NCBI RefSeq assembly: GCF_014859695.1
Contig: NZ_JACUTS010000004.1
Coordinates: 1-64,000, forward strand
Length of the DNA stretch: 64,000 bases
From: Sulfurimonas sp.
Lineage (GTDB): Bacteria; Campylobacterota; Campylobacteria; Campylobacterales; Sulfurimonadaceae
Direction: 5' to 3'
A program made the position numbers and the translations under genes. The notes under the pieces are model-generated. The model was not told where the DNA came from. It saw only the letters and a list, made by a program, of their open reading frames with translations, and made no database searches. Position 1 is the stretch's first letter. Every line of letters begins with the position of its first letter. Below are positions 24,194-31,948 of this stretch, piece by piece.

Positions 24194-24293
24194 ATAACCT
24201 ACCTTTGTTATTGTTATTGTTTTAAAACGCATAAAAACATAAGTCGTTTGACTTAAATATTTTCACTTATTTTTTGGAAAAACAGTTACGTGG

Positions 24294-24302
24294 ATTGTAG
24301 CA
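24294..24302 (-). promoter_or_regulatory. Candidate promoter (-10) for the nuo operon
   Basis: On the minus strand TGCTACAAT is an extended -10 box preceded by a T-rich stretch, the usual sigma-70 pattern in Campylobacterota, which often lack a -35. It lies about 100 bp upstream of the nuoA ATG, predicting a 5' leader of roughly 90 nt. The remaining gap up to 24521 shows no gene. Confidence 0.45.
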
Positions 24303-24504
24303 AAAAGAGTATTAAATAAAAGATTAAGAGGTTATTTGAAGTAGTTGCTGTTACTAAACACTACATGTTTTTTTGATTTTTTATTACTCTTGTGTAAAGC
24401 CGAAACACACATTTATGCCACTGTGGGAGAATCTCTACTTTTTATCATTTTACCTATCAACGGATTTTGAGAGATTCATTCACGGGGTGAGCAATATTTC
24501 TTCG

Positions 24505-24521
24505 CCCCCCCCCTTTTTTTT
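24505..24521. repeat. C9T8 homopolymer tract
   Basis: Nine C followed by eight T on the plus strand, immediately after the stop codon of the 202-aa gene (G9 downstream of A8 when read with that gene). Long G/C tracts in this phylum often vary in length. Here it is outside any reading frame, so it may only affect the 3' end or be a sequencing-sensitive site. Confidence 0.6.
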
Positions 24522-25130
24522 CTAATGGTTATCGTGCGATTTTTTTGAACCGTGGTCATGTCCGCCGCTGCCGGCTGCCATGTTGTGTATGCCCTCGACG
24601 AAATGGACGTACCTTACGTACGCTTCCACATAATCCCGACCCTCTTTGACACCCTCCTCTTTATGGGCATCTTTTTCTTTAGTCTCTTCAAAGCGCTTTT
24701 TGATGGCTGTTTCGACAGCTTGGGCTACTTTTTTGGCAAGAGCGTCAACCGAACCCGTTTCCAGTGCTTTGTCGGCCGCCGCTATTGCAGGTTCAACGTT
24801 GCCGGCAGGTTTAAGACCGGTATAAGGGGCGCCTTCTCCTGCGCGGTGAACACGCACAAGCGTTTCAAAGAAGTAACGGTCCGCCATCTCCTGCACATCT
24901 TCTCCTTTGGTGCGAACTTTCAGGGCACCGTTAAAAGCATGGGTAATTTCATTCTCCTGATGGGCATCTTTGACCCATTTTAAGACTGGAGTAATATCCT
25001 TTTTCTCTAGAGCAATCCTTGCATCGTTGAGAACAGGACCGTCTAACGTATCGCAGTGGGCGAAGGCATTGCCTGAGAATGCTACGGCAAGCAGAGGGAT
25101 AAAACCTTTTTTAATATATTTTTTTAACAT
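24522..25130 (-). CDS. Exported DUF6448-like protein with His-rich tail
   Basis: 202 aa. Signal peptide MLKKYIKKGFIPLLAVAFSG..AFA followed by a mature protein beginning HCDTLDGPVLNDAR. It is helical and charged, and ends in a histidine-rich tail (GGHDHGSKKSHDNH) that may bind metal. The HCDTLDGPV start of the mature region is characteristic of the DUF6448 family, whose function is unknown. Monocistronic. Confidence 0.75.
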   Translation of the reverse strand: MLKKYIKKGFIPLLAVAFSGNAFAHCDTLDGPVLNDARIALEKKDITPVLKWVKDAHQENEITHAFNGALKVRTKGEDVQEMADRYFFETLVRVHRAGEGAPYTGLKPAGNVEPAIAAADKALETGSVDALAKKVAQAVETAIKKRFEETKEKDAHKEEGVKEGRDYVEAYVRYVHFVEGIHNMAAGSGGHDHGSKKSHDNH

Positions 25131-25309
25131 GTGATTCCTTTTTAATTTTGTTATGGGAGAGTTTATTGCAGATAAGTTAATAGGTTATTGATTAGTGTTT
25201 AAAACAAAAATAAAATTGTTTCAGATTGCGTCAAAATCGGAACAGTTTAAAAGCAAAAACGAAGAGTCTGCAACATAAAGTCGCCATTTATCGCTTACCT
25301 ATGCATGGC

Positions 25310-25477
25310 TTAGTATAAAATCTTATCCTCTTTCGCGCTCCACACTTTAAAAGGCTCTAAACACTCCTCTCTGTCTATATTTTTAAACTCCAAAACTTCT
25401 TTTTCGTAAAACTTTTGGTCTCTAAAGCCTATCGCATCGGCGTCTTTGCTTGTTGCGCCATAATGTTGTTCATGTTA
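25310..25477 (-). pseudogene. Fossil 3' end of a guanine-deaminase-like gene
   Basis: On the minus strand the frame reads HYGATSKDADAIGFRD and continues to WSAKEDKILY and TAA. Over 50 residues it is identical at 40 positions to the C-terminus of the intact deaminase at 29335-29778. Upstream the frame is closed by a stop at once, so the catalytic HAE and PCPMC part is missing. The differences include many third-position changes, so it derives from a diverged homologue, not from a recent copy. Confidence 0.85.
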
Positions 25478-25498
25478 TTTACTCTATCTTGTTTGTTT

Positions 25499-26320
25499 TT
25501 AAAATCTATACTTTAACTCTACACCGACCTCTTTGGTTGTATTTTTAGGTTCAGATTGTTCATATAATGTATATGTATACATACCGTCATAGTAATAGTT
25601 TTTTTCAGAATCTTCTATCTTCCAGTAGTTAAAAAAAGCGCCTATAGACCAACTCTGCTGCTCATAAGCAGAGTTTATTCGAAAACCGTAGCCGCTTTTT
25701 TGCTCATTTACGGGGTCTCCAAATACAATTGCTTGCCATGGACCTACATCCGAAAGATAGCTTTTTTGCTCACCCCATGCAAAATAGTCATACTCAATAT
25801 TTGTTGAGATGCGAGCATCTTTGCCGACTTTAAAACGGTGATTAACCCCGATTGGAATATAGAGATAGTGGCTTGTTCGGCGGTATCCTCCGCTTCCAAG
25901 GTCTCTTAAATCATTCTCTAATACACGGTATCCGACACCTATATATGAGCCTAAAAGGAAACCGTCTACAATTTTTTCGTTAGCCACAACAAGACGCATT
26001 TCATACAAGTCATCTGGAACATCAGCCACTCCGGAAGCGCTTTTGTACTCTACGTCTCCCGTTGCATAACGAAATTCGCCTTTAAGATAATACGCATCAG
26101 CAAGGGTTTTAGTCGCTGAGGCAGAAAATCCATACTTTGTGCCTTTGTTAGACATAAAAAAAGCGCCCTCTACCTCTTCTTCGTACTCATAGAGGTATGA
26201 CTGCACCCCAATTTCAAACGAGTCAACAGTTTTAAGAGAGAAGTTTCTCTCAGATGTATCTGCTTCAGCCAAACTAATAATCAAAAAACAAAATAACGAT
26301 ACTGCTATACTTTTTTTCAT
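25499..26320 (-). CDS. Outer-membrane beta-barrel protein
   Basis: 273 aa. Signal peptide MKKSIAVSLFCFLIISLAEA, then alternating aromatic/hydrophobic strands and the C-terminal motif ELKYRF with a final Phe, typical of barrels inserted by BAM. The protein has many tyrosines and no recognised family signature. It sits exactly between the fossil 3' end of an AAA+ gene (upstream) and a fossil deaminase 3' end (downstream), where the intact locus has a CbiX-like gene. This suggests it arrived with, or was inserted into, a second copy of that locus. Substrate unknown. Confidence 0.75.
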   Translation of the reverse strand: MKKSIAVSLFCFLIISLAEADTSERNFSLKTVDSFEIGVQSYLYEYEEEVEGAFFMSNKGTKYGFSASATKTLADAYYLKGEFRYATGDVEYKSASGVADVPDDLYEMRLVVANEKIVDGFLLGSYIGVGYRVLENDLRDLGSGGYRRTSHYLYIPIGVNHRFKVGKDARISTNIEYDYFAWGEQKSYLSDVGPWQAIVFGDPVNEQKSGYGFRINSAYEQQSWSIGAFFNYWKIEDSEKNYYYDGMYTYTLYEQSEPKNTTKEVGVELKYRF

Positions 26321-26370
26321 TAATCTCTCCCAGCTTAATTTTTAACATAATATCATAAGATTACAGAAAG

Positions 26371-26457
26371 TTACTTATTTAAAAATCCCATCAGCTTCTC
26401 ACTGTCAAAACTTGCATCTTTCTCTTTTTTAATCTCTTGCTCAAAATCTTCTGTAGA
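26371..26457 (-). pseudogene. Fossil 3' end of an AAA+ ATPase gene
   Basis: The minus strand reads TEDFEQEIKKEKDASFDSEK, then LMGFLNK and TAA. From DFE on, 22 of 25 residues match the C-terminus of the intact AAA+ ATPase at 30212-31948. The upstream part is absent and the frame is closed by a TAA. Together with the deaminase fossil it keeps the gene order of the intact locus. Confidence 0.85.
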
Positions 26458-26504
26458 AAGCTGTAGTTAAGAAAAATATCAAAAGAGAGTTAGCAATTTT
26501 TGGA

Positions 26505-26534
26505 TTGACTCAAGTTCTATAACTAGTCTATAAT
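26505..26534 (+). promoter_or_regulatory. Sigma-70 promoter of the PPOX gene
   Basis: TTGACT and TATAAT separated by 18 bp, about 33 bp before the start codon; AAAGGG forms the ribosome site. The spacer includes ATAACTAGTCTATAAT, partly palindromic around ACTAGT, which could be an operator. Confidence 0.65.
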
Positions 26535-26567
26535 AGTGCTAGATTTATATATTTAAAAAGGGCAAAC

Positions 26568-27041
26568 ATGCGACATAGAACTAAAACACACCTCTTAAGC
26601 AAAGAGCAGATAGAAGAGCTGTTTTTGAGAGCTGAAGTTGGACGACTTGGGACTTTTTCTCAAGATGCTTTTCCATATATATTGCCTATGCATTTTGTAT
26701 ATTTTGAAGATAAAATATATATGCATGGCTTGCCAAAGGGCAAAAAAATTGACAATATTGCGTTTAACCCAAATGTCTGTTTTGAGATAGATGAAATGTT
26801 CTCTTTGTTGCATGAAGGTGTTGAAAACCCTTGTGATGTAAACACGGCATTCAATAGCATTATCGCTAAGGGCACGGCTTCAATTGTTACTGATTTTGAT
26901 GAGAAAAAAATCGCTTTATCTAAAATCGTAGAAAAATTTACACCACATTTGGCAGATAGAGAGATGCCTCTTAAGATGATAAATGCAACCGCTGTTATAA
27001 GAGTGGATATTTTAACATGTGTCGGAAGGTATTATAAATAA
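26568..27041 (+). CDS. Pyridoxamine 5'-phosphate oxidase-like flavin-binding protein
   Basis: 157 aa. A split-barrel fold of the NimA/PPOX-like family: RAEVGRLGTFSQDAFPYILP, FVYFEDKIYMHG, KGKKIDNIAFNPNVCFEID, FNSIIAKGTASIV. Such proteins bind FMN, F420 or haem and often act as small reductases; NimA members inactivate nitroimidazoles. Here the substrate is unknown. It has its own strong promoter and converges on the ada-like gene, sharing a hairpin with it. Confidence 0.8.
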   Translation: MRHRTKTHLLSKEQIEELFLRAEVGRLGTFSQDAFPYILPMHFVYFEDKIYMHGLPKGKKIDNIAFNPNVCFEIDEMFSLLHEGVENPCDVNTAFNSIIAKGTASIVTDFDEKKIALSKIVEKFTPHLADREMPLKMINATAVIRVDILTCVGRYYK

Positions 27042-27060
27042 AGGGGAAATTTCTCCCCTT
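27041..27060. terminator. Hairpin between convergent genes
   Basis: AAGGGGAAATTTCTCCCCTT is a near-perfect 20-base inverted repeat in the 28-bp gap between two convergent genes. The T-rich sequence after it on the minus strand makes it a plausible terminator for the ada-like gene. On the plus strand no clear T-run follows. Confidence 0.5.
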
Positions 27061-27069
27061 AAAAGTGAT

Positions 27070-27897
27070 CTATTTTTCTTTGTTTAAAGACTCATAAGCA
27101 ATCAGTATCTTTTTACGCTCAATTCCCCATCTATAACCGCTCATGGCTCCGCTTTTAGCTATAACTCTATGACATGGGATTAAGTATCCTATGTGGTTTC
27201 TTCCGATGGCACTTGCTACTGCTCTGGTTGCTTTTGGTTTATCTAGGAAGTTTGCTATATCTTGGTAGGTTGCGACTATCCCGTTTGGCAGATTTAAAAG
27301 AGCCCTCCAGACATTTATCTGAAGATTTGTTCCCTTTACAAATAGGGAGTATTTTTTATTTTTTATGAAGATATTCTCTAAGTACTCATTTGCGGCTTTT
27401 TCATCGAAACAAAGATTTGCATTTTCCCAAAGTTCTTTAAATCTGTTGAAAATTTCATTTTTATTATTATCAATAAAACCCAAATAACAGATGCCTTTGT
27501 CCGTAAATCCTATCAAAGCCTCTCCAAAAGAAGTTTCTCCGAATCCGTAAGTTATTAAAACATCTCTGCCCTTTTCTCTCCACTCTTTTGGAGTTACCCC
27601 GATTAGGTTTACAAAAAGTTCATGCAGTCTGCTTGAGCTTGAGAGCCCCATATCTAAACTGCTCTCAAGTATGGATTTAGACTCTTTTATATGCTCTTTT
27701 GCATAGTTTAGTGTCACGCTGTGTAAAAACTGCATAGGAGTAACGCCTACATACTCTTTAAATACTCTTATGAAGTGGTATTTGCTCATGCCGATATTTT
27801 TAGCGACTTCATCAATTGAAGGGTGCTCTTTGAAATTCTCATCAATATATTTGATTGCTTTTTCTATCTGTATATAGTTGCTGTTAAAAGTATGCAT
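27070..27897 (-). CDS. AraC-type regulator fused to O6-methylguanine-DNA methyltransferase (Ada-like)
   Basis: 275 aa. Residues ~5-105 form an AraC helix-turn-helix pair (IDEVAKNIGMSKYHFIRVFK, VTPMQFLHSVTL). The C-terminal ~85 residues are an Ogt/Ada methyltransferase with the active-site PCHRV and the upstream ASAIGRN helix. It lacks the N-terminal zinc/phosphotriester domain of full Ada, so it can repair O6-methylguanine but lacks the usual methyl-phosphotriester sensor. This short arrangement is known in other bacteria. Confidence 0.88.
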   Translation of the reverse strand: MHTFNSNYIQIEKAIKYIDENFKEHPSIDEVAKNIGMSKYHFIRVFKEYVGVTPMQFLHSVTLNYAKEHIKESKSILESSLDMGLSSSSRLHELFVNLIGVTPKEWREKGRDVLITYGFGETSFGEALIGFTDKGICYLGFIDNNKNEIFNRFKELWENANLCFDEKAANEYLENIFIKNKKYSLFVKGTNLQINVWRALLNLPNGIVATYQDIANFLDKPKATRAVASAIGRNHIGYLIPCHRVIAKSGAMSGYRWGIERKKILIAYESLNKEK

Positions 27898-27923
27898 CGC
27901 CTCTCCAAACTCTCAAAAAAACC

Positions 27924-29186
27924 TTAGTAAGTAGATTGATTGTAAATTACAAAATTCCCAGCTAACTCTTCTAACTCTTTGTTTATTTTAGCATGGAGAA
28001 CTTTATCTTCAATATTATCTAAAACATCGCAGATTTTATTTGCGATAAACTCAAACTCTTTTTCTTTCATGCCTCTTGCCGTTAATGCAGGGCTTCCTAT
28101 TCTGATACCCGAGGTTATAAACGGTGTTCTCTTCTCTCCCGGAACTGTGTTTTTATTTACAGTTATTCCCGCATCTGCTAAAGCTGTATCTGCATCTTTA
28201 CCAGAGAAAGGTTTGTCTAAAAATGAGACCAAAACAAGATGATTATCCGTTCCACCCGAAACAAGTTCAAATCCTCTCTCAAGCAGTACTCTCTCGAGCA
28301 CTTTAGCATTTGCCTTTACCTGTTTTGCGTACTCTTTCCATGATGAATCTAGCACCTCTTTAAATGCAACTGCCTTCGCAGCTATAACGTGGACAAGCGG
28401 TCCGCCTTGAGTTCCGGGGAAAATGGCTGAGTTGATTTTTTTAGCAATCTCCTCATCATTTGTCATAATCACGCCGCCTCTTGGACCTCTTAGAGTTTTA
28501 TGTGTAGTAGTTGTTACAACATCTGCATAAGGGAATGGGCTCATATGTTCCTTAGCAGCAACAAGACCTGCAACGTGCGCAATATCGGCAAATAAAATAG
28601 CACCGACCTCGTCGGCTATCTCTTTAAATTTCTTAAAGTCTATCTCTCTTGCGTATGCGCTAGCACCGCAAACTATGATTTTTGGTTGAGTTATTTTTGC
28701 AATTTCTAAAACTTTATCATAATTGATTCTTCCATCAAGTTCTACGCCATAATAAAATGCAGAATAGTTTTTACCTGAAAAAGATGGTTTGCTTCCATGA
28801 GTTAAATGTCCGCCATCAGAGAGATTCATACCTAAAATTCTATCTCCTGCTTGAAGGAGTGCCGCATAAACAGCAGCATTTGCTTGACTTCCTGAGTGAG
28901 GCTGAACATTGGCATAAGCACAGCCAAAGATTTTACAAACCCTATCAATCGCCAACTGCTCAACAGCGTCAGCTTCCTCACAACCGCTATAGTATCTTTT
29001 ATATGGATACCCTTCCGCATATTTGTTAGTAAAAACACTTCCCATAGCCTGCATAACGGCTGGGCTTGTAAAGTTCTCACTAGCAATCATCTCTAAGTGA
29101 TTGGTTTGTCTCTTTAGCTCTTTTTCAATAATTGAAAAAACTTCACTGTCTGCAACTTCCAAGCTTGCATTTGATATAAAACTCAT
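27924..29186 (-). CDS. glyA: Serine hydroxymethyltransferase
   Basis: 420 aa from [15 protein letters not shown], which is preceded by GGAGAAAAAGG. The track start 19 codons earlier is not supported. PLP enzyme converting serine and tetrahydrofolate to glycine and methylene-THF. Signatures: [29 protein letters not shown], the PLP-lysine motif [16 protein letters not shown], and [17 protein letters not shown]. Full length for the family. Confidence 0.97.
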
Positions 29187-29334
29187 CCTTTTTCTCCAAT
29201 CTTTTATTTTTAAAAGAATAACCGAATCAAAAAGATTTAACAATCCAAAAATTGCTATCTTTGGTTTATCTTTAATAAAAGCTTTTTAAAAATAGGGTGT
29301 TGATTATGAGTATTGAAAAACTATTATTGAACTA

Positions 29335-29778
29335 TTAGTAGAGTATTTTATCCCTTTTTGCACTCCATGCTTCAAATGGTTTCAAGCACTCTTCTCTGTC
29401 AATATTTTTTAACTCCAAAAACTCTTTTTCATAGAACTCTTTATCCCTAAAACCAATAGCATCCACATCGTCACTTGTTGCTCCGTAGTAAACTGTTTTA
29501 ATATTTGCCCATCTTATCGCTCCCATACACATAGGGCACGGCATGCATGTAATATAAATTTCGCATCCGCTTAAATCAAAAGTTTGGAGTTTTTTGGAAG
29601 CTTTTTTAATTGCATTTATCTCGGCATGTAAAGTCGGGTCATTTTGTTTTATAACTTCATTATGAGCTTTTGAAATAATTTTGCCCTCTTTTACTATTAC
29701 GGCTCCAAAAGGTCCGCCGTGGTTTTGTTCTACACCCTTAAATGCCTCTTTTACGGCTTGACGCATAAATTTTTTCAT
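29335..29778 (-). CDS. Guanine-deaminase-like nucleoside/base deaminase
   Basis: 147 aa from MKKFMRQAVKEAF, just after the stop of the CbiX-like gene; the ORF-track start lies inside that gene. Zinc-dependent cytidine-deaminase-like fold with HAEINAIKKA (proton-shuttling Glu) and PCPMCMGAIRWANI (zinc ligands). NHGGPFGAVIVKEG and the C-terminal YGATSDDVDAIGFRD...W tail are typical of GuaD more than of tRNA adenosine deaminase TadA. Likely guanine to xanthine. A fossil second copy of its 3' end lies at 25.3 kb. Confidence 0.85.
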   Translation of the reverse strand: MKKFMRQAVKEAFKGVEQNHGGPFGAVIVKEGKIISKAHNEVIKQNDPTLHAEINAIKKASKKLQTFDLSGCEIYITCMPCPMCMGAIRWANIKTVYYGATSDDVDAIGFRDKEFYEKEFLELKNIDREECLKPFEAWSAKRDKILY

Positions 29779-29779
29779 G

Positions 29780-30133
29780 CTATCTACCGGATAAAAAAAT
29801 ATCTTCAATCAACTTTACATATCCGCTGTTTGCCCCAATATGCTCTAAAACAGTAATCTCAATCTTATATTTTTTACTGCATACTTCACTAAGAGAGGGA
29901 ATATCTTCTTTTACATGCTTTCCCGGAGCCAAAAAAAGAGGTAAAACTTTTATGGAGGTTGCACCGGCTTTTTTGAGAAGTTTTACGGCATTTTCAAAAT
30001 CAGGCTCAGCTAATTCCAAAAAGGCCAACTCTATGTTTTGAATATTTTTTCTAAGCTCTTCTAAAACATTAAAACTTTCTTCATTTGAAGCTTTTACTTT
30101 ACTTCCATGTGAAAGAAGTATATATCCATCCAT
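29780..30133 (-). CDS. CbiX/SirB-type sirohydrochlorin chelatase-like protein
   Basis: 117 aa. A single chelatase domain with GYILLSHGSKVKASNE at the N-terminus (metal-binding His in SHGS) and KVLPLFLAPGKHVKEDIP carrying the second conserved His. Short single-domain CbiX proteins insert Co or Fe into sirohydrochlorin for cobalamin or siroheme synthesis. Stop and next start (deaminase) nearly abut. No other tetrapyrrole genes are nearby. Confidence 0.85.
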   Translation of the reverse strand: MDGYILLSHGSKVKASNEESFNVLEELRKNIQNIELAFLELAEPDFENAVKLLKKAGATSIKVLPLFLAPGKHVKEDIPSLSEVCSKKYKIEITVLEHIGANSGYVKLIEDIFLSGR

Positions 30134-30211
30134 CTTCTCTTCTCCTCTACTGCTATATCTAACTGAGATAATTTTTCATTGACAACTCATCAATATAATT
30201 TTATAAAAATC

Positions 30212-31948
30212 TTATTTATTTATAAATCCCATCAATTTTTCACTGTCAAAACTTGCACTCTTCTCTTTTTTTATCTCATGTTCAAAATCTTTTAAATAAA
30301 AAACAGGTTCCTCTCTTACAGCTACTTTATATGCGGTGTTTTTAATAATCAAGCTTATTTGTCCGCCTGTTAAAGAGTATTCAGCAAGCTCGTTTAGGTC
30401 AAAAGCCTCTTCATATGGCGCATGCAAAGGAAGCATTTTGTTCCAAAGGGAGAGCCTCTGCTCTTTGTTTGGCTTTTTGAACTCTATTTTGTAGTTAAAA
30501 CGTCTTGAGAATGCTTTGTCAATGTTCTCTAAGAGATTTGTAGTAGCGATAAGAACGCCCTTAAACTTCTCAATCTGCTCCAAAAAGATATTCTGCATCT
30601 GGTTGTGCATCTGATCAGCCCCGCTGTTTGCTCCGCTTGAACGCGCACCCAAAAACTGGTCTGCCTCGTTTAGCAAAAGTATAGGTTCTGATTTTGTTTT
30701 TTCACACAAATCGTAAAAAGTGTCAAAAATTTTACGAACGTTTTTTTCGCTCTCTCCCACATACATGGAGAGAATTTTTGAGCAGTCAAATGCCAAAACC
30801 TGACGTTTAAGCGACTTTGCGAGCGAATATGCCGTCATGGTTTTACCCGTTCCAGCCGCGCCGTAGAAGATGATTCTTGCGTCAATGCCGCTTTTTTTAT
30901 CTTTGATGCCCCACTCTACAAGCCTCCCAATAACCTCTTTATCAAGCTGTCTCATAAGATTTTTAAGAGTCTCTTGCGTCTCTTTTGCAAGTACGACATC
31001 TTCAAGTGAAGTCTCAGGCTCTACAAGCTCAAAAATATCCTGCTCATCTATAAGCGTGTTAAGTTTTATGCGGCGAACTTTTTTGTTTTTTTGCGGGTGG
31101 ATGATGCTTTGGAGAATATCATCTACAATATAAAAAGCGCGCGAAATTCCCCCAAAAGGGTTTAACATCTCCTCATAATCAATGATTCCGTCATTTATAA
31201 GGTTTGAACCATCCTCCAAAAGTGAGCGGTTTTTTATGCGATCATACTCATCAAGCGATATTAGCTCTATAAGCGTGTTCATCTCGCGCAAAGAGGCATC
31301 CGTCGCGCTATACTCTTCACGAAGAAGGGCAAGAAAAATAACCTGCTCTTTAGCATCCATCTTTTTTTGTTTGAAGAACTTATCGAGTACTAGTTTTCCG
31401 GCAGTTTGAGCCACTCTCTCCTCTATGCGTTTTTCCAAGAGTTTTAGCTTTACCTGCGTTCTGTCAATGCCCAAAGAGTGCTCATGTACGTTTTGGCGGA
31501 TTGCACTCATCTTTTGGTAGAGATCTATACGCAAAAACTGGTCTTGAAGATACTCAAGGTGATCAGAATAGGGCTTAATGTCGGGCAGTTCACTCTCGAG
31601 CGCACCATCTTGAAGCAGCTTAAGAAACGAAGGAGAGAGTCCGACTGCACTGTTTAAAAGCTCTAGCGGTGTTACGTCTGAGATTTTTATGGGAGTAAAG
31701 CTCTGCTGATGCAGCCAGCCGAGTTCTAAAAGAAGCTTTACCTCTGTTATGTGCTTAATAGCTTCATATTTTTCACTGCCGTACATCTCCTGCAAAAGGT
31801 CAAGAATCAAAGCATCATCTTCTCCGCGCATGTACCTTTTTGCAAGTGTTTGCAACAATTGTGCTTCTGTTTTACTACATTTTAACTGCGCGTAAATAAG
31901 TGTTTTTTCTATATTTTTTGCTTCTAAAAAATCGATTAATGTTTCCAA
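30212..31948 (-). CDS. AAA+ ATPase with long helical N-terminal region
   Basis: 578 aa. Residues 1-330 are helical, charged and unrecognised. The C-terminal AAA+ domain has Walker A YGAAGTGKTMTAYSLAKSL (~360), a Walker B region PILLLNEADQFLGARSSG in which the usual D-E is N-E, sensor TTNLLENIDKAFSRRF and an arginine-finger region. It resembles classical AAA proteins that remodel partners (FtsH/spastin-like core) but has no protease domain. It lies 8 bp downstream of the FadL-type porin gene, so the two are probably co-transcribed. A fossil of its 3' end lies at 26.4 kb. Confidence 0.8.
   Translation of the reverse strand: METLIDFLEAKNIEKTLIYAQLKCSKTEAQLLQTLAKRYMRGEDDALILDLLQEMYGSEKYEAIKHITEVKLLLELGWLHQQSFTPIKISDVTPLELLNSAVGLSPSFLKLLQDGALESELPDIKPYSDHLEYLQDQFLRIDLYQKMSAIRQNVHEHSLGIDRTQVKLKLLEKRIEERVAQTAGKLVLDKFFKQKKMDAKEQVIFLALLREEYSATDASLREMNTLIELISLDEYDRIKNRSLLEDGSNLINDGIIDYEEMLNPFGGISRAFYIVDDILQSIIHPQKNKKVRRIKLNTLIDEQDIFELVEPETSLEDVVLAKETQETLKNLMRQLDKEVIGRLVEWGIKDKKSGIDARIIFYGAAGTGKTMTAYSLAKSLKRQVLAFDCSKILSMYVGESEKNVRKIFDTFYDLCEKTKSEPILLLNEADQFLGARSSGANSGADQMHNQMQNIFLEQIEKFKGVLIATTNLLENIDKAFSRRFNYKIEFKKPNKEQRLSLWNKMLPLHAPYEEAFDLNELAEYSLTGGQISLIIKNTAYKVAVREEPVFYLKDFEHEIKKEKSASFDSEKLMGFINK

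Follow-up and report, generated by a model that had tools for sequence, protein, structure and literature searches.

Genomic islands that insert at the 3′ ends of genes rebuild the gene end with incoming sequence and displace the old end as a direct repeat. A rebuilt gene end and a displaced direct repeat are also found at the locus described here, which lies in a window of 64,000 nucleotides from a Sulfurimonas sp. genome (NZ_JACUTS010000004.1, positions 1 to 64,000), but no integrase, tRNA or defined identical core was seen in it. Single crossovers of non-replicating circles at lacZ of E. coli leave an insert flanked by direct partial duplications of the target gene of 109-950 bp (PMC3240628), and the same arrangement is seen here with a repeat of at least 89 nt; in contrast to the lacZ circles, the event is a natural one between species diverged by 10-20%, the duplicate has decayed and a circular intermediate would be one of two conceivable routes. 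In homology-facilitated illegitimate recombination, which is described for the natural transformation of S. pneumoniae, A. baylyi and P. stutzeri (PMC3240628), a homologous joint at one end is combined with a non-homologous one at the other, as may be the case at our locus. However, the resident DNA lost in this process is usually similar in amount to the DNA gained, whereas here resident DNA was kept downstream and only about 155 nt of an AAA+ gene may be missing. Our literature search on Sulfurimonas recombination and gene-end duplications returned nothing specific.

Taken together, the locus displays the marks of an insertion with partial duplication of the target gene, i.e., a direct partial repeat, a mosaic target gene, and a native displaced beside a foreign rebuilt copy. 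With a probability of roughly 85%, we read it as a native locus invaded by a foreign block through ordinary gene exchange between related Sulfurimonas, the fossil gene ends being the displaced native ones. Natural transformation, which has been studied in Aliarcobacter butzleri, a relative among the campylobacteria (PMC8308473), would be a plausible route.

Two gene fragments on the minus strand frame an intact gene for an outer-membrane beta-barrel protein (25499-26320, minus strand). The first, at 25310-25471, is the 3′ third of a deaminase gene whose 5′ part is deleted; the second, at 26371-26459, holds the last 26 codons, the stop and a few bases of an AAA+ gene. In blastn searches inside the window, 25310-25462 matched 29335-29487 in the intact deaminase gene (75% over 153 nt, E 1e-24) and 26371-26450 matched 30212-30291 in the intact AAA+ gene (86% over 80 nt, E 2e-21), the latter forming an ungapped direct repeat of 83% over 89 nt (26371-26459 and 30212-30300). 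These matches scored 105 and 96 bits, whereas 200 dinucleotide shuffles of the fossil region, compared with the intact locus, gave no more than 34.6 bits. On the residue level, 40/51 positions of the deaminase fossil and 22/25 of the AAA+ fossil agree with the intact genes. Both fossils are diverged copies of the intact gene ends, well above chance, and they keep the strand and order of the intact locus with the barrel gene between them, as the original prediction had stated. Its further claim of mostly silent changes also held (about 26 synonymous to 14 nonsynonymous for the deaminase, 7 to 4 for the AAA+ end), and a once functional, diverged copy as their source is supported.

A shared family motif as the origin of the AAA+ tail match was rejected, as the genuine match spans 26 codons up to the stop; further matches of the tail in four relatives (G090, G094, G089, G032) cover only 26-36 nt and lie in unrelated genes, some of them Lys/Glu-rich. 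An assembly artefact was likewise dismissed, since the metagenome-assembled genome of Sulfurimonas sp. KA11 (G104) has the same locus in the same arrangement and is clearly diverged outside the block described below. The fossil region had no match in a plasmid collection.

Sliding identity and a finer scan delimit a block from about 26460 to about 30420-30455, which contains the AAA+ 3′ end, cbiX, the intact deaminase gene, glyA2, an ada-like gene and a PPOX-family gene. Compared with KA11 it is 97-100% identical up to about 30300, and compared with the distant genome G012 it is 92-100% identical, save for a single 200-nt bin between genes, upstream of glyA2, where identity falls to 78%. The flanks are mostly 75-92% identical, with the exception of the region of the DUF6448 gene, which is 94-98% alike in KA11. 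A further genome, G090, is 92-100% identical over 26492-29200 and mostly 72-87% identical outside this stretch. The right junction and the promoter region of the PPOX-family gene (26460-26567, plus strand; TTGACT ... TATAAT) are common to KA11 (100%), to G012 from 26459 and to G090 from 26492.

The PPOX (pyridoxamine-phosphate-oxidase)-family gene itself (26568-27041, plus strand; PF12900) is 96-100% identical in these three genomes. It is followed on the minus strand by the ada-like gene (27070-27897; AraC-type HTH and methylguanine methyltransferase in NCBIfam, 99% protein identity in G012 and G090), by glyA2 (27924-29186; PRK00011.1), by the intact gene for a cytidine/deoxycytidylate-type deaminase according to Pfam (29335-29808), and by the cbiX-like gene (29780-30133; PF01903, 97-100% in KA11 and 92-100% in G012). 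The ada-like gene of KA11 (L066:6747-7567) carries a frame change near its 3′ end despite the otherwise near-identical block. The genome's other, housekeeping glyA (C61:105577) is 79% identical to glyA2. The glyA2-ada pair, in some cases with the PPOX gene, occurs at other loci in seven relatives (G063, G084, G060, G069, G115, G112, G079), and is thus an accessory module.

The left boundary of the block lies inside the AAA+ gene. Against the sister species G004, this gene is 72-88% identical in its last 244 nt and mostly 82-98% identical upstream, with the breakpoint near 30455 against G004 and near 30420 against KA11 and G012. The intact AAA+ gene is thus a mosaic of a native 5′ part (30456-31948, minus strand), closest to G004, and a foreign 3′ end (30212-30455, minus strand), the latter delimited by identity scan, alignment and tree.

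Phylogenies indicate which copy belongs to the genome. A tree of the nuo genes pairs the window with G004 as sisters (support 96/98), followed by KA11 and G005; G012 stands far off. The displaced AAA+ tail agrees with G004 in 26/26 residues, and in the tree of AAA+ ends it groups with the KA11 tail, G004 and G005 (84/84), whereas the intact 3′ ends of the window, KA11 and G012 form their own clade (100/99). For the deaminase, the relic joins the second copy of KA11 (96/90) and then G088 (89/91), and the intact copies group with G012 (99/99) and G004 (92/92). AU tests rejected the window's two copies as sisters for the AAA+ ends (p 2.5e-7) as well as for the deaminase (p 2.7e-5); a broader constraint uniting all five AAA+ ends of the window, KA11 and G012 in one clade was not rejected (p 0.077).

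A grouping of the fossils with other species, apart from the window's intact genes, is therefore confirmed. The trees and tests point to the fossils as the displaced native locus and to the intact AAA+ 3′ end, cbiX and deaminase as the incomers. A tandem duplication within the genome followed by loss and divergence, which would explain two copies on the same strand in the same order and had been offered as one possible source, is extremely unlikely: sisterhood of the two copies is rejected for both genes, and across the species border the intact copies match G012 at 92-98%, an identity that the genome at large does not reach.

The native gene order gives a second line of comparison. Seven Sulfurimonas genomes (G088, G005, G062, G121, G063, G021, G070) show the order AAA+, deaminase, nuoABCD, in several of them with a putative 571-aa acyltransferase-like gene between deaminase and nuoABCD. 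In all seven the AAA+ gene abuts the deaminase gene directly; a cbiX gene stands between the two in G084, G069 and G112. The idea that the barrel gene had replaced cbiX is consequently wrong, as cbiX is missing from this position in the relatives with native order. In the window, the fossils occupy the nuo side, i.e., the position of the native pair in the relatives, and the intact AAA+-cbiX-deaminase group is parted from nuo by glyA2, the ada-like gene and the PPOX-family gene. Between the deaminase relic and nuoA lies a DUF6448 gene (PF20046, 24522-25130), which is 97% identical in KA11 and was not found at that place in the other relatives examined.

The original prediction had seen the fossils as parts of an incoming second locus that brought in a porin. 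Foreign DNA recombining at conserved gene ends is indeed supported, but with reversed polarity. Had the fossil piece been the incomer, this would fit the rarity of the barrel gene, which occurs in 6/228 genomes of the family (the window, KA11, G105 and three genomes of another genus) and at this place only in the window and KA11, and also the grouping of the deaminase relic with G088 instead of the closest species. We nevertheless consider it very unlikely, because the AAA+ tail equals that of G004 in all 26 residues and groups with the window's own clade, the piece lies beside nuo where relatives keep the native pair, the sharply bounded near-identity belongs to the other part, and the divergence of the barrel gene from KA11 resembles that of native neighbors.

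The barrel gene itself is intact and conserved and encodes 273 aa; the ORF matched no Pfam or NCBIfam family. Two Sulfuricurvum MAGs carry it, and its neighbors are unrelated outside the window and KA11. Between these two, dN is 0.08 and dS 0.82, which indicates purifying selection, and its identity of 84%, about equal to that of the native neighbors, stands against 97-100% for the block. Given this selection and native-like divergence, the gene was most likely already situated between the native AAA+ and deaminase genes when the recent exchange took place; it is outside the moved block, and nothing shows its import by the event. An AlphaFold2 model built with six sequences (pLDDT 79, pTM 0.76) predicts about 10 long strands, with OpcA and the omptins as best folds (TM about 0.6 at 12% identity), a likeness that indicates the barrel class only. 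As a general porin has 16 or 18 strands, the designation as porin is not supported for this predicted 10-stranded barrel.

The course of events was probably as follows. The native locus would have read AAA+, barrel gene, deaminase, (DUF6448 gene), nuoABCD, and a related Sulfurimonas would have supplied a foreign block (AAA+ 3′ end, cbiX, deaminase, glyA2, ada-like gene, PPOX) that recombined into the 3′-terminal part of the native AAA+ gene. On the left side, joining by homology inside AAA+ produced the mosaic, full-length gene that is observed; on the right side, sequence upstream of the PPOX gene is joined to the native AAA+ 3′ end, with the native tail, barrel gene and deaminase left downstream. 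This right joint may have formed by single crossover of a circle or by homology-facilitated illegitimate recombination. With the incoming deaminase, the native one would have become redundant and decayed, the barrel gene staying under purifying selection. The near-identity inside the block and the divergence outside suggest that it later moved between species by homologous recombination. Among the relatives, no genome with AAA+, barrel gene and deaminase was found free of the block, so that our picture of the locus immediately ahead of the insertion is a reconstruction.

The joints themselves bear signs of later change. The left breakpoint, at about 30455, is separated by about 155 nt from the right junction, which corresponds to 30300; this does not fit a clean one-point insertion, and later trimming or exchange must be assumed. 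The junction is trimmed differently in G012 than in the window and KA11, and the original joint, for which 3-10 bp of microhomology was sought, may be lost.

A site-specific integrative element using the AAA+ 3′ end as attachment site, rebuilding the gene end and pushing the old one aside, could likewise leave an accessory block flanked by direct repeats of a gene's 3′ end, and in G090 and G004 the block boundaries also fall close to the 3′ ends of genes. Such an element is highly improbable here: the ORF list, Pfam and NCBIfam gave no integrase, recombinase or transposase gene in the block, whose genes belong to other families, no tRNA was seen near it, and the boundaries vary among genomes between the AAA+ end and the deaminase end. 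In the search for an att core, the AAA+ repeats (83% over 89 nt) showed short identical runs and no defined identical core.

The block also contains an inverted repeat (26481-26507 and 29241-29267), which we considered as the terminal inverted repeats of a mobile element and rejected as such. Within it, the box TAGCAATTTTTGGATTG is present at 26491-26507 (plus strand) and 29241-29257 (minus strand), upstream of the PPOX-family gene and of glyA2. The same box stands upstream of glyA2 in other genomes, exactly in G084, G060, G069, G115, G112 and G079 and with 2 mismatches in G063 and G021; with 1-4 mismatches, it also precedes the PPOX gene of G084, G060 and G063. The gene orders there differ. 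Since it recurs with these genes at other loci, a regulatory function is more likely. The box is probably an operator, perhaps one for the AraC-type ada-like protein encoded between the PPOX-family gene and glyA2.

Relatives preserve the native deaminase in different stages of decay. In KA11 it is nearly whole (L066:4711-5160), with a single premature stop near the 3′ end, and in the window about 275 nt of the 5′ part are deleted. In G012, part of the AAA+ tail persists next to the PPOX gene, and about 15 nt adjoining this part show a suggestive resemblance to the deaminase end. In G090, a 108-nt deaminase relic directly abuts the block at window position 26492; in G004, a deaminase relic follows ada; and in G070, a piece of the glyA2 upstream region comes immediately after the deaminase stop. 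Near the displaced deaminase end of G090 are also adjacent genes for 107 and 157 aa (L073:2537-3330), by appearance a putative antitoxin/PIN-type pair. The series may reflect a single ancestral insertion followed by losses, or repeated exchanges. The junction, 100% identical between the window and KA11 beside a barrel gene of 84%, speaks for at least one exchange in recent times. Furthermore, the second deaminase of KA11 groups with G088 and not with G005, its relative by nuo genes, so an earlier exchange may have involved the native copy, too.

The gene content of the interval from AAA+ to nuoA (24232-30212 in the window) is highly variable among the relatives and includes cbiX, genes for a ~625-aa and a 418-aa protein, the barrel gene, the putative 571-aa acyltransferase-like gene, the DUF6448 gene and glyA2-ada-PPOX. 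From its gene content, the interval looks like an insertion hotspot. More tentatively, it could be a recombination hotspot of Sulfurimonas: the conserved AAA+ gene would serve, together with its displaced tail and the end of the deaminase gene, as a set of homology arms that can be used repeatedly, and the glyA2-ada-PPOX module would thereby spread between species with no mobility gene of its own.

In kind, the feature is an ordinary recombination scar, preserved as a good fossil record. It also corrects a natural mistake, as the intact copy would be the newcomer and the fossil the original. As a natural record of accessory genes entering a conserved bacterial locus without transposases, it makes a foreign breakpoint, displaced native ends and several decay stages visible across related species.
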